In this document: positions 6,131 to 27,019 of the stretch, piece after piece
Layout of the letters: every line of letters starts with the position of its first letter
How positions within the stretch are numbered: position 1 is the first letter of the stretch
Assembly (NCBI RefSeq): GCF_014069875.1
Contig: NZ_CP059676.1
Location: 1,736,001-1,800,000, forward strand
Origin: Flaviflexus equikiangi
Lineage (GTDB): Bacteria; Actinomycetota; Actinomycetes; Actinomycetales; Actinomycetaceae
Length of the DNA stretch: 64,000 nt
Reading direction: 5' to 3'
Program-made: the position numbers and the translations under genes
The notes under the pieces: generated by a model
Database searches by the model: none
Told to the model about the DNA's origin: nothing
The model's input: the letters and a program-made list of their open reading frames with translations, nothing else

Positions 6131-6164
6131 AAAAGTGAGGCCCCTCCGGGTGGAGGGGCCTCAC
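6131..6164 (-). terminator. Terminator of rrn operon copy 1
   Basis: Perfect 13-bp stem GTGAGGCCCCTCC / GGAGGGGCCTCAC around a 4-base loop. Read on the minus strand it is followed by TTTT (complement of AAAA at 6131-6134). It lies about 10 bases beyond the 5S 3' end. Only this copy of the three has a U-tract. Confidence 0.9.
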
Positions 6165-6173
6165 GGGGTTGAA

Positions 6174-6293
6174 TGGCGGCGGTGTCCTACTCTCCCACAC
6201 CCTCCCGAGTGCAGTACCATCGGCGCTGGTGGGCTTAGCTACCGGGTTCGGAATGAGACCGGGCGTTTCCCCACCGCTATAGCCACCGCCAAA
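6174..6293 (-). rRNA. rrf: 5S rRNA, copy 1
   Basis: About 120 nt. On the minus strand it starts near TTTTGGCGGTGGCTATAGCG, contains GAAACGCCCGGTCTCATTCC and ends near GACACCGCCGCCATT, the classical 5S sequence of actinobacteria. Ends are estimated to within a few bases. Confidence 0.93.
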
Positions 6294-6414
6294 ACTTTGG
6301 GGTCGCATAACGATCATATAGTGTTATGGGTTACCGGGGTGGTTTGAATGGTAACCATACAGTGGACGCGAACACGCTAAAGTCATGAGAACTCAGAGCT
6401 CGTTTAATTGTGTG

Positions 6415-9400
6415 TTGTGAATTATTTGGCCATTAGTACCAGTCAGCTCCACACTTTACAGTGCTTCCACATCTGGCCTATCAACCCCATAGTCTTTAGG
6501 GGGCCTTCACCAACACGAATGTTGGATGGAAACCTCATCTTGAAGCAGGCTTCCCGCTTAGATGCTTTCAGCGGTTATCCCTTCCGAACGTAGCCAACCA
6601 GCCATGCACCTGGCGGTACAACTGGCACACCAGAGGTTCGTCCGTCCCGGTCCTCTCGTACTAAGGACAGCCCTTCTCAAGTTTCCAACGCGCGCAGCGG
6701 ATAGGGACCGAACTGTCTCACGACGTTCTGAACCCAGCTCGCGTACCGCTTTAATGGGCGAACAGCCCAACCCTTGGGACCTACTCCAGCCCCAGGATGC
6801 GACGAGCCGACATCGAGGTGCCAAACCATGCCGTCGATATGAACTCTTGGGCAGGATCAGCCTGTTATCCCCGGGGTACCTTTTATCCGTTGAGCGACGG
6901 CGCTTCCACAAGCCACCGCCAGATCACTAGTTCCTGCTTTCGCACCTGCTCGACTTGTCAGTCTCACAGTCAAGCTCCCTTGTACACTTGCACTCGCCAC
7001 CTGATTACCAACCAGGCTGAGGGAACCTTTGAGCGCCTCCGTTACCATTTAGGAGGCAACCGCCCCAGTTAAACTACCCACCAGGCACTGTCCCTGAACC
7101 AGATCATGGTCCGAGGTTAGATGTGCAATACGACCAGAGTGGTATTTCAACAATGACTCCACACCCACTAGCGTGAATGCTTCACAGTCTCCCACCTATC
7201 CTACACAAGCCGTACCGAACACCAATACCAAGCTATAGTAAAGGTCCCGGGGTCTTTCCGTCCTGCTGCGCGTAACGAGCATCTTTACTCGTCGTGCAAT
7301 TTCGCCGAGTTCGTGGTTGAGACAGCGGAGAAGTCGTTACGCCATTCGTGCAGGTCGGAACTTACCCGACAAGGAATTTCGCTACCTTAGGATGGTTATA
7401 GTTACCACCGCCGTTTACTGGGGCTTAAATTCCTAGCTTCGCACACAAAGTATGCTAACCAGTCCTCTTAACCTTCCAGCACCGGGCAGGCGTCAGTCCG
7501 TATACATCGTCTTACGACTTCGCACGGACCTGTGTTTTTGATAAACAGTCGCTTCTCCCTGGTCTCTGCGACCCTCACCCCTAACCCGCATGGGGTTTCA
7601 AGGTTCAGGTCCCCCTTCTTCCAAAGTTACGGGGGCATTTTGCCGAGTTCCTTAACCACGATTCTCTCGATCGCCTTAGTATTCTCTACCTGACTACCTG
7701 TGTCGGTTTCGGGTACGGGCGGCTCATACCTCGCGTCGAGGCTTTTCTAGACAGTACAGGATCACCCTACTTCCCCCAATCAAGGGGTCATCATCAGACC
7801 TCACCCTTCACGTTCCCCGGATTTGCCTAGGAAACGGGCTGCGTCCTTAAACGTGCCAAGCCATAAGACACGCGGTGGCTACCTCTCTGCGTCACCCCTG
7901 TTAATACGCTTGCCTACCGTAAGATCAGGTCCCACGCGCACCACCACACCAACCCGAAGGAAGACGTGATGGTTTGGATGGTTAGTATCCCTCACCTCAG
8001 CATTGGACGGTATTTCGCCGGTCACCAGAATATCAACTGGTTGTCCATCGACTACGCCTGTCGGCCTCGCCTTAGGTCCCGACTAACCCAGGGCGGATTA
8101 ACCTGGCCCTGGAACCCTTAGTCATTCGGCGGACGGGTTTCTCACCCGTCTTTCGCTACTCATGCCTGCATTCTCACTCGTCACCATTCCACCAACGCTC
8201 ACGCCCTGGCTTCACCACGATGACGACGCTCCCCTACCCAACAAAACACGAATGTTTCATTGCCATGGTTTCGGCGGTGTACTTTAGCCCCGCTACATTG
8301 TCGGCGCACAATCACTTGACCAGTGAGCTATTACGCACTCTTTCAAGGGTGGCTGCTTCTAAGCCAACCTCCTGGTTGTCACTGCAACTGCACATCCTTT
8401 CCCACTTAGCACACGCTTAGGGGCCTTAACCGATGGTCTGGGCTGTTTCCCTTTCGACTACGAAGCTTATCCCCCGCAGTCTCACTGCCACGCAATACGT
8501 AACCGGCATTCGGAGTTTGGCTGACGTCAGTAACCCGGTGGGGCCCATCAGCCATCCAGTAGCTCTACCTCCGGCACGCTACACGCAACGCTGCACCTAA
8601 ATGCATTTCGGGGAGAACCAGCTATCACGGAGTTTGATTGGCCTTTCACCCCTACCCACAGGTCATCCCCTCCATTTTCAACTGAAGTGGGTTCGGGCCT
8701 CCACACGCTCTTACACGTGCTTCACCCTGCCCATGGGTAGATCACCCCGCTTCGGGTCTAGAGCATGCGACTCAAACGCCCTATTCAGACTCGCTTTCGC
8801 TACGGCTACCCCACACGGGTTAACCTTGCCACACACCACTAACTCGCAGGCTCATTCTTCAAAAGGCACGCCATCACCCCAACAAAGGAGGCTCTGACGG
8901 ATTGTAGGCGCCCGGTTTCAGGTACTATTTCACTCCCCTCCCGGGGTACTTTTCACCATTCCCTCACGGTACTATTCACTATCGGTCACTAGGGAGTATT
9001 CAGGCTTACAAAGTGGTCTTTGCAGATTCACACGAGATTCCACGAGCCCCGTGCTACTTGGGTGGCGCATCAGATATAGCAGCACAATTTCGTCTACCGG
9101 GCTCTCACCGTCTACGGCCCTGTTTCCCACCAGGTTCAACTATCACACCACTACCATCCCGACCCCATACGGAGGGCCGAAAACACGCTCCCACAACACC
9201 GCATGCGCAACGCCCGTAAGCTCTCACACACACACGGTTTAGCCATCATCCGCTTTCGCTCACCACTACTCACGGAATATCTCTTCCTGCGGGTACTGAG
9301 ATGTTTCACTTCCCCGCGTTCCCCCCACACACCCTATACATTCAGGTGCGGGTAACCCACCATAACGTGGGCCAGGTTTCCCCATTCGGACACCCTCGGA

Positions 9401-24822: not shown

Positions 24823-25129
24823 ACATTAAAGAACTCTTCGATTCACACAAACCAAAGATGCTCGCGTCCACTATACAGTTACCAAACAACCCACCCACAT
24901 CACACAAACACACCACAACAGTGCACCCACATGACAGAGCAACCAGGGCTGCTAACCCCAAACCCCAACAGCATGCCGTTTCCTACCACACAACCGATTC
25001 CATTCCGAGCAACCATTCAAGCAGGCGCCACCCACTATCCCATCGGCAGGAACATCGCCACCACACAACCACCACCCACAAACGCAGGCGTGACATGATC
25101 GCATGGATTTCGGGAAAAAATTCTCCCTA

Positions 25130-26661
25130 GAAAGGAGGTGATCCAGCCGCACCTTCCGGTACGGCTACCTTGTTACGACTTCGTCCCAATCGCCAACCCC
25201 ACCTTCGACCGCTCCCCCAAAAAGGTTGGGCCACGGGCTTCGGGTGTTGCCAACTTTCGTGACGTGACGGGCGGTGTGTACAAGGCCCGGGAACGTATTC
25301 ACCGCAGCGTTGCTGATCTGCGATTACTAGCGACTCCGACTTCATGGGGTCGAGTTGCAGACCCCAATCCGAACTGAGACCGGCTTTAAGGGATTCGCTC
25401 CGCCTTACGACATCGCAACCCTCTGTACCGGCCATTGTAGCATGCGTGAAGCCCAAGACATAAGGGGCATGATGATTTGACGTCGTCCCCACCTTCCTCC
25501 GAGTTAACCCCGGCAGTCTCTCGTGAGTCCCCAACTAAATGCTGGCAACACGAGACAAGGGTTGCGCTCGTTGCGGGACTTAACCCAACATCTCACGACA
25601 CGAGCTGACGACAACCATGCACCACCTGTACACCAGCCCGAAGGCAACCACATCTCTGCAGTCTTCCAGTGTATGTCAAGCCTTGGTAAGGTTCTTCGCG
25701 TTGCATCGAATTAATCCGCATGCTCCGCCGCTTGTGCGGGCCCCCGTCAATTCCTTTGAGTTTTAGCCTTGCGGCCGTACTCCCCAGGCGGGGCACTTAA
25801 TGCGTTAGCTACGGCGCAGAAACCAAAGGTCCCCACACCTAGTGCCCAACGTTTACGGCATGGACTACCAGGGTATCTAATCCTGTTCGCTCCCCATGCT
25901 TTCGCTCCTCAGCGTCAGTTATAGCCCAGAGACCTGCCTTCGCCATCGGTGTTCCTCCTGATATCTGCGCATTCCACCGCTACACCAGGAATTCCAGTCT
26001 CCCCTACTACACTCAAGCCTGCCCGTACCCACTGCAAGCGCGGGGTTAAGCCCCGCGTTTTCACAGCAGACGCGACAAGCCGCCTACGAGCTCTTTACGC
26101 CCAATAATTCCGGACAACGCTCGCGCCCTACGTATTACCGCGGCTGCTGGCACGTAGTTAGCCGGCGCTTCTTATGCAGGTACCCTCAACCAGGCCAAAA
26201 CCTGGACTTGTTCCCTGCCGAAAGAGGTTTACAACCCGAAAGCCGTCATCCCTCACGCGGCGTCGCTGCATCAAGCTTTCGCTCATTGTGCAATATTCCC
26301 CACTGCTGCCTCCCGTAGGAGTCTGGGCCGTATCTCAGTCCCAGTGTGGCCGGTCACCCTCTCAGGCCGGCTACCCGTCGACGCCTTGGTAGGCCACTAC
26401 CCCACCAACAAGCTGATAGGCCGCGAGCCCATCCCCCACCAATAAATCTTTCCAACAACCACCATGCGACAGAAGTTGAATATCCGGTATTAGACCCAGT
26501 TTCCCAAGCTTATCCCGAAGAAGGGGGCAGGTTACTCACGTGTTACTCACCCGTTCGCCACTAATCCACCCACAGCAAGCTGTGAGCATCATCGTTCGAC
26601 TTGCATGTGTTAAGCACGCCGCCAGCGTTCGTCCTGAGCCAGGATCAAACTCTCCGTAAAA
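25130..26661 (-). rRNA. rrs: 16S rRNA, copy 3
   Basis: As copy 1 except for one fewer C in the plus-strand run at about 25213-25217. Confidence 0.95.
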
Positions 26662-26806
26662 ACCTTTACAGAAAAGCTGAAACAGCTCCATAAAAAACAA
26701 AACAAAATCAATCAAATAATAAAAAACGACACACTATTGAGATTCAAAACCAGCAACCCACAGCCAAAGACCATCAAACAACAATCTCTCGCGGAGCAAC
26801 CTCTCT

Positions 26807-26955
26807 ACCTTAGCACACCCAGCCGAGCCAGACAAATTCAAACCATGTGATCCGAACCACCCACACCCAACCAGACCCACAAGCCCAGAGGCATCCCTCC
26901 CGAACTCGCCGGAAGCAACTTGATAAATCTAGGCCCCCACAACCAACCCCGTCAA
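26807..26955 (-). promoter_or_regulatory. Tandem rrn promoters, copy 3
   Basis: TTGACG-18-TAGATT (26926-26955) and TTGTCT-17-TAAGGT (26807-26835), identical to the other operons. As the outermost promoter pair on the transcription strand, this one is preceded by gatB rather than by another rrn operon. Confidence 0.75.
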
Positions 26956-27019
26956 ACCACAACCACGTGACCCTCAACACCAACCCACCCCCACCAGCAC
27001 AAACACCCCAGAAACAGCA

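Follow-up and report, generated by a model that had tools for sequence, protein, structure and literature searches.

Introduction

Tandem ribosomal RNA (rRNA) operons and duplications mediated by such operons (rrn) are already documented, and rrn-mediated duplications in Salmonella were reportedly described by Anderson and Roth in 1981. The present work concerns a stretch of 64,000 nucleotides of Flaviflexus equikiangi (contig NZ_CP059676.1, positions 1736001-1800000), hereafter the window, in which three rrn operons (R) stand head to tail beside gatB and are separated by two copies of a spacer (S) that carries an acyltransferase open reading frame (ORF). We judge it probable that this is a real tandem array of three operons at the gatB locus, derived by one RecA-type unequal recombination between the direct operons of an older R-S-R arrangement. 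Literature listings, viewed by titles and the openings of abstracts and in one case for 20 of 118 entries, gave no report on this locus or on a triple array within the family.

The closest described systems are compared here. Streptococcus iniae QMA0248 resembles the window in its direct tandem rRNA repeat, which the PacBio and nanopore assemblies show differently; the copy state varies in culture, and nanopore reads resolved the disagreement (PMC9176272). It differs in that a tRNA cluster, and not a protein gene, lies between the operons, and no triple is described in the parts of that report consulted (PMC9176272). The S. pyogenes SF370 reference contains a tandem rRNA-tRNA operon with an assembly artefact (PMC11737162). 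Clusters of two and three operons, comparable to the present one, are known in Bacillus subtilis as rrnJ-W and rrnI-H-G (PMC3405057), and this species also offers an rrn-mediated duplication, between rrnW and rrnI, in which a chimeric rrn separates the repeats; no such duplication was detected when recA was mutated (PMC8266666). That duplication, however, covers ~60 kb and 76 genes, compared with 2.1 kb and one ORF here, and it was fixed under selection; PCR also detected it in a fraction of the wild-type population (PMC8266666). In B. anthracis, where the rrn number differs between strains (PMC8788319), a bacitracin-resistance cluster lies between two direct operons, rrnG and rrnH, much as the acyltransferase ORF does in the window; the loss of the genes between them was inferred to result from unequal crossing-over of the two operons, and amplification was proposed (PMC6208641). 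The observed event is thus a deletion in that species, whereas an expansion would have occurred here (PMC6208641).

Structure of the array

The genome is a single contig of 2,343,974 bases, 99.86% complete. Positions 6135-27014 of the window have the order R-S-R-S-R, with three rrn blocks of 5.56 kb and two spacers of 2.10 kb, and lie between two unique flanks:

6135-11696, minus strand: R1, rrn operon copy 1 (16S 9812-11342, 23S 6414-9503, 5S 6174-6290), with a terminator stem at its left and the leader/promoter region at its right
11697-13798, no strand assigned: S1, spacer copy 1
13799-19360, minus strand: R2, rrn operon copy 2 (16S 17476-19005, 23S 14078-17167, 5S 13838-13954)
19361-21457, no strand assigned: S2, spacer copy 2, 5 bases shorter than S1, with four differences, all deletions
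21458-27014, minus strand: R3, rrn operon copy 3 (16S 25131-26660, 23S 21736-24822, 5S 21496-21612)
5497-6108, plus strand: PaiB/FMN-binding-like gene (PF04299), unique left flank, of which a homologue adjoins the rrn pair in the related genome G004
27064-28581, minus strand: gatB, unique right flank, followed by gatA, a phospholipase D/cardiolipin-synthase-like gene and ligA

The names of gatB and of the three genes after it are presumptive, being assigned from the sequences themselves. Self-BLAST revealed a direct repeat of 13.2 kb (13799-27014 against 6135-19360, 99.86% identity) and a further copy of 5.56 kb (21458-27014 against 6135-11696, 99.84% identity), and repeats of such length cannot be due to chance. 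The array periods are 7664 and 7659 bp, and the spacers measure 2102 and 2097 bp. Three complete genes each for 16S, 23S and 5S rRNA, all on the minus strand, were located within 6135-27014 by Rfam models, and the region, with its three complete, adjacent operons in the same orientation, is a tandem rrn cluster. The two analyses agree with the original prediction, which had described three blocks of 5.56 kb with a period of ~7.66 kb and two spacers of 2.10 kb. The exact block edges that it had claimed, from the terminator stem on the left to CAGAAA on the right, were also seen at all copies. These edges are sharp, and the flanks differ outside them: the sequence beyond the left edge of R1 (the paiB-like gene) is different from that beyond the right edge of R3 (gatB). 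The internal R/S junctions are the same in all copies, and no novel junction sequence is present. S occurs twice in the whole genome, which contains a fourth operon, R4 (16S at 1298088-1299617), beside a gene that we take from its sequence to be tyrS. No tRNA gene was found in the window by ARAGORN.

The gatB locus in the genus and tandem operons in the family

The genus was represented by six genomes, including the one under study; among the other five, only G001 and G004 are single contigs. Each of these two has three 16S genes, two in direct tandem, spaced by 7.2 kb in G001 and 10.3 kb in G004, and one alone. The tandem pair lies upstream of gatB-gatA-cls in both genomes (ligA is also visible in G004), and the lone operon adjoins tyrS, as R4 does. 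On the side of the pair opposite gatB, G004 has a paiB-like gene, as in the window, and G001 an acetamidase/formamidase-family gene. The identity of GatB to its counterparts in the genus is 84-89% in the aligned pieces. The seven-contig assembly of G003 shows a gatB-linked and a tyrS-linked operon, both broken off at a contig end; the one 16S gene of G002 is on a contig of 5.3 kb, and no 16S gene was seen in G005. Because of these contig ends and of the small contig or missing 16S gene, G002, G003 and G005 say little on the state of the array.

The gatB-linked operons of G001, G003 and G004 resemble R1 up to position 5483-5536 of its 5562 bases, whereas the similarity to R1 ends at 5313-5314 for the tyrS-linked operons and at 5310 for R4. 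Since the former match R1 further upstream than the latter, the gatB locus has an upstream region of its own that these genomes share, and the operon pair there is old. The comparison of the locus in relatives that the original prediction had proposed gave two operons (R-S-R) with other spacer content in G001 and G004. In G001, the spacer of ~1.6 kb holds two ORFs of at least 120 amino acids (aa), of 186 and 122 aa, both extending into an rrn end. The spacer of ~4.8 kb in G004 contains an IstB_IS21 gene, an adjacent Mu/rve-type transposase gene and another rve-family gene. In the first tandem operon of G004, a further rve-family transposase gene interrupts the 5S sequence (L007 2439-3665), the two 5S pieces overlapping by 7 query bases, as a target-site duplication would.

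At the level of the family, 16S genes were counted at up to nine candidate places per genome in 60 further genomes, 55 of them single contigs and 5 in two or four contigs. This set comprised all single-contig genomes of a preliminary screen except G000, G001 and G004, plus five others; the screen scored two 16S candidates per genome and served only to choose genomes, and G006 was included because of a pair seen in that screen. Together with G001 and G004, these make 62 genomes, and operons were regarded as tandem when they shared a strand and lay less than 15 kb apart. Tandem pairs were found in 8/62 (G001, G004, G006, G095, G100, G134, G174 and G184), or in 6/57 when single-contig genomes only are considered. 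In G174, from another genus, the pair lies ~2 kb from the start of gatB; no gatB was seen in the stretches around the pairs of G095, G100, G134 and G184, nor on the 12 kb contig of G006. G001, G004 and G174 thus resemble the window in having direct tandem operons at the gatB locus, and differ from it in having two operons, not three; the spacer content of G001 and G004 is also unlike that of the window.

Two further arrangements were observed in the survey. The 12 kb contig of G006, which belongs to another genus, consists almost entirely of two tandem operons (L110 1-12084), 100% identical over 5341 bases, and the array in that genome may be longer than two operons. G065 (L111 1-17000) has two oppositely directed rrn copies close to the start of a contig; they are bordered by a full gatB on one side and, on the other, by a gatB match that is divergent or broken, and this opposed arrangement is probably an assembly fault.

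Differences among the copies

The copies were compared with one another column by column, and then with R4 and with eight operons of G001, G003 and G004. Five deletions of R3 are absent from R1, R2 and R4: 23S has three of them, 16S one and the terminator stem one. At the four 23S and 16S positions, all eight operons of the relatives agree on the base. One of the five R3 deletions is accompanied by the only substitution. R3 also has a sixth deletion, in an A run, that is common to R4 and variable among the relatives. S2 differs from S1 by four deletions and no substitution. In R1, one 23S base is substituted relative to every other operon compared, and one T is missing from the leader. A one-base 16S deletion is common to R2 and R4 and absent from R1, R3 and all eight operons of the relatives, and R4 lacks two further A's. 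At one site of the internal transcribed spacer (ITS), R1 and R3 have C, R2 and all eight operons of the relatives have A, and R4 has a gap. The flanking genes appear, on informal inspection, without obvious break in eight ORFs of 316-792 aa.

Proposed unequal crossing-over and alternative explanations

We propose that the ancestor was R-S-R at the gatB locus. Both single-contig genus-mates have this arrangement there, and the substrate for unequal crossing-over is thus old. Sister chromosomes would have been misaligned, one operon against the other, and a crossover inside R would have yielded R-S-R-S-R with a hybrid middle operon and without a new junction, plus a reciprocal single R. Every R/S junction of the array is already present in a plain R-S-R, and the duplicated unit is exactly one S and one R, as a crossover in such an ancestor would predict. 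The rrn total would have risen to four, where G001 and G004 have three. The unequal recombination between operons flanking a spacer that the original prediction had put forward is well borne out by the R-S-R arrangement of G001 and G004 at the same locus. The likely effect would be a small increase in rRNA gene dosage, the acyltransferase spacer being carried along. The direct repeats of 5.56 kb persist, and spontaneous contraction and expansion of the array would be expected.

Several observations weigh against this proposal. No tandem triple was found in the other family genomes (0/62, and 0/57 among single contigs). The original description of a tandem array as unusual needs tempering, since tandem pairs are not exotic in the family. 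The crossover predicts a mosaic R2 composed of R1 and R3 sequence; at two sites, the ITS base and the 16S deletion, R2 instead matches neither and points to R4, a state that needs a later conversion from R4, misplaced R4 reads or error. Furthermore, S2 and R3 together differ from their sister copies by 10 deletions, one of which is also in R4, and 1 substitution; the deletions span 19740-26691 and are mostly in short homopolymers. The tandem copies in the eight other genomes differ by 57 substitutions and 15 gap openings (Fisher p 1.2e-5, from observed counts in which events scored relative to several copies are compared with gap openings between pairs). This dominance of deletions, compared with the substitution-rich divergence of other tandem copies, marks S2-R3 as a poorly polished and unreliable consensus, which fits uncorrected long-read indels and possibly derives from few reads. 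The contig was also probably rotated, since dnaA is at its start (base 581), and its original end may lie in the repeat.

The foremost alternative is that the true locus is R-S-R and that one S-R unit was added in assembly, for instance by a merge of contig ends in the wrong R at circularisation or by a graph path crossing S twice. The caveat of the original prediction that an assembly duplication would look similar is a real one, the cluster of deletions in S2-R3 being typical of an unpolished long-read consensus. We regard such an artefact as possible, although rather unlikely. It would account for the concentration of deletions in S2 and R3 next to an S1 and flanking ORFs that look intact, it is consistent with the R-S-R state of both single-contig relatives, and a contig that begins at dnaA conceals where its original ends were. 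There are also precedents in the one strain for which PacBio and nanopore assemblies differ on a tandem rRNA repeat (PMC9176272) and in a reference genome whose tandem rRNA-tRNA operon contained an assembly artefact in its tRNA genes (PMC11737162). However, a duplicated R1 or R3 would have C at the ITS site, and R2 has A, together with the 16S deletion common to R4; with these two states, R2 is no mere duplicate of an adjacent operon, and a real third operon is favoured, even if misplaced R4 reads could mimic both variants. The stand-alone R4 also has one-base deletions, so that such errors occur outside the array as well. In addition, a read of ~6-8 kb would already show S-R-S, and a long-read assembler would presumably need chimeric support to create it. 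Taken by itself, the reality of the array is in our estimation quite probable, and we infer the crossover, its dependence on RecA, the effect on dosage and the present instability of the array.

It could further be imagined that the gatB-linked rrn locus of the genus is a standing expandable array, in which the operons recombine readily, the slot between them turns over its content (insertion sequence (IS)-type elements, a foreign acyltransferase or nothing) and the dosage of the slot is tied to that of rRNA; the array would be fixed here at three units, while cells in culture would carry one to several. We consider this extension doubtful. An IS- or transposon-mediated duplication of the S-R unit was rejected, the junctions being without novel sequence and the sole sizeable ORF of S being the acyltransferase. 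Finally, that the array is real and S2-R3 is decaying by true mutations, which leave R3 damaged as an rRNA operon and turn acyltransferase copy 2 into a pseudogene, would agree with the five R3 deletions private in the genome, four at positions uniform in the relatives, and with the broken ORF of S2, but it is very improbable, as decay should produce mainly substitutions and the deletions should be removed by gene conversion between the rrn copies.

The acyltransferase spacer

The spacer has one sizeable ORF, on the rrn strand and directly after the terminator of R2 (or R3):

12561-13763, minus strand: acyltransferase family 3 ORF of S1, 400 aa, intact (PF01757, E 3e-27), with an in-frame ATG at 13619
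20223-21422, minus strand: acyltransferase copy 2 in S2, frame broken, span mapped from S1

The gene may in fact begin at the inner ATG (13619). Compared with S1, the ORF of S2 lacks a single G at three places, or at two if the gene starts at that ATG. Outside the ORF, a long (GA)n tract (~12077-12103 in S1, ~19740-19765 in S2) is two bases, or one unit, shorter in S2, possibly reflecting a slippage site or an error. The spacers are thus near-identical, as had been predicted (2102 against 2097 bp, four differences), but the acyltransferase ORF is intact in S1 only, as assembled. The idea of a working acyltransferase amplified together with rRNA is not supported by the assembly, in which the second copy is frameshifted, nor by the spacers of G001 and G004, from which this gene is absent.

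Distant relatives of the acyltransferase, with 23-27% identity, occur in four of the five other genomes of the genus; there was no match in G005. They are far from the rrn operons in G001, G003 and G004, and in G002 on a different contig than its only 16S gene. Inheritance of the acyltransferase with the locus was judged improbable on the basis of this low identity and of these positions. Within the family, matches at E <= 0.001 were obtained in 15/200 genomes, own genome included, and the best ones outside it have 35-36% identity and belong to other genera. At the DNA level, S1 does not convincingly resemble the loci of G001 and G004. Because the matches in the genus are so low and distant from rrn, and the best ones in the family lie in other genera, the acyltransferase was probably acquired. 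The spacers of the relatives hold IS-type genes or no evident gene, and for this reason it looks, most simply, like a passenger of the duplicated unit.

Leader, promoter and terminator regions

Each R block has a near-identical upstream region and a terminator stem:

6135-6164, minus strand: R1 terminator stem-loop, 13 bp stem, followed by a U run
13799-13828, minus strand: R2 terminator stem-loop, same stem as R1, located just upstream of the acyltransferase ORF and not followed by a U run
21458-21486, minus strand: R3 terminator stem, no U run after it, just ahead of acyltransferase copy 2

Without a U run after the R2 and R3 terminators, readthrough from rrn into the acyltransferase gene is conceivable, as a matter of speculation. 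A promoter scan limited to 11300-14100 gave one match against a shuffle mean of 0.7, which is not above chance. Elsewhere, in the unique part of the window, a near-perfect palindrome of 35 bases was observed at 43621-43655 and is perhaps a terminator.

Discussion

The gatB locus carries a warning for the use of assembled genomes, in that rrn counts from single assemblies, as well as 16S and 23S variants in extra copies, can rest on unpolished consensus. For this little-studied family of actinobacteria, it makes two- and three-operon states comparable at one locus, and, if the array is real, as we propose, it shows that the rrn copy number can rise by one without any new junction.

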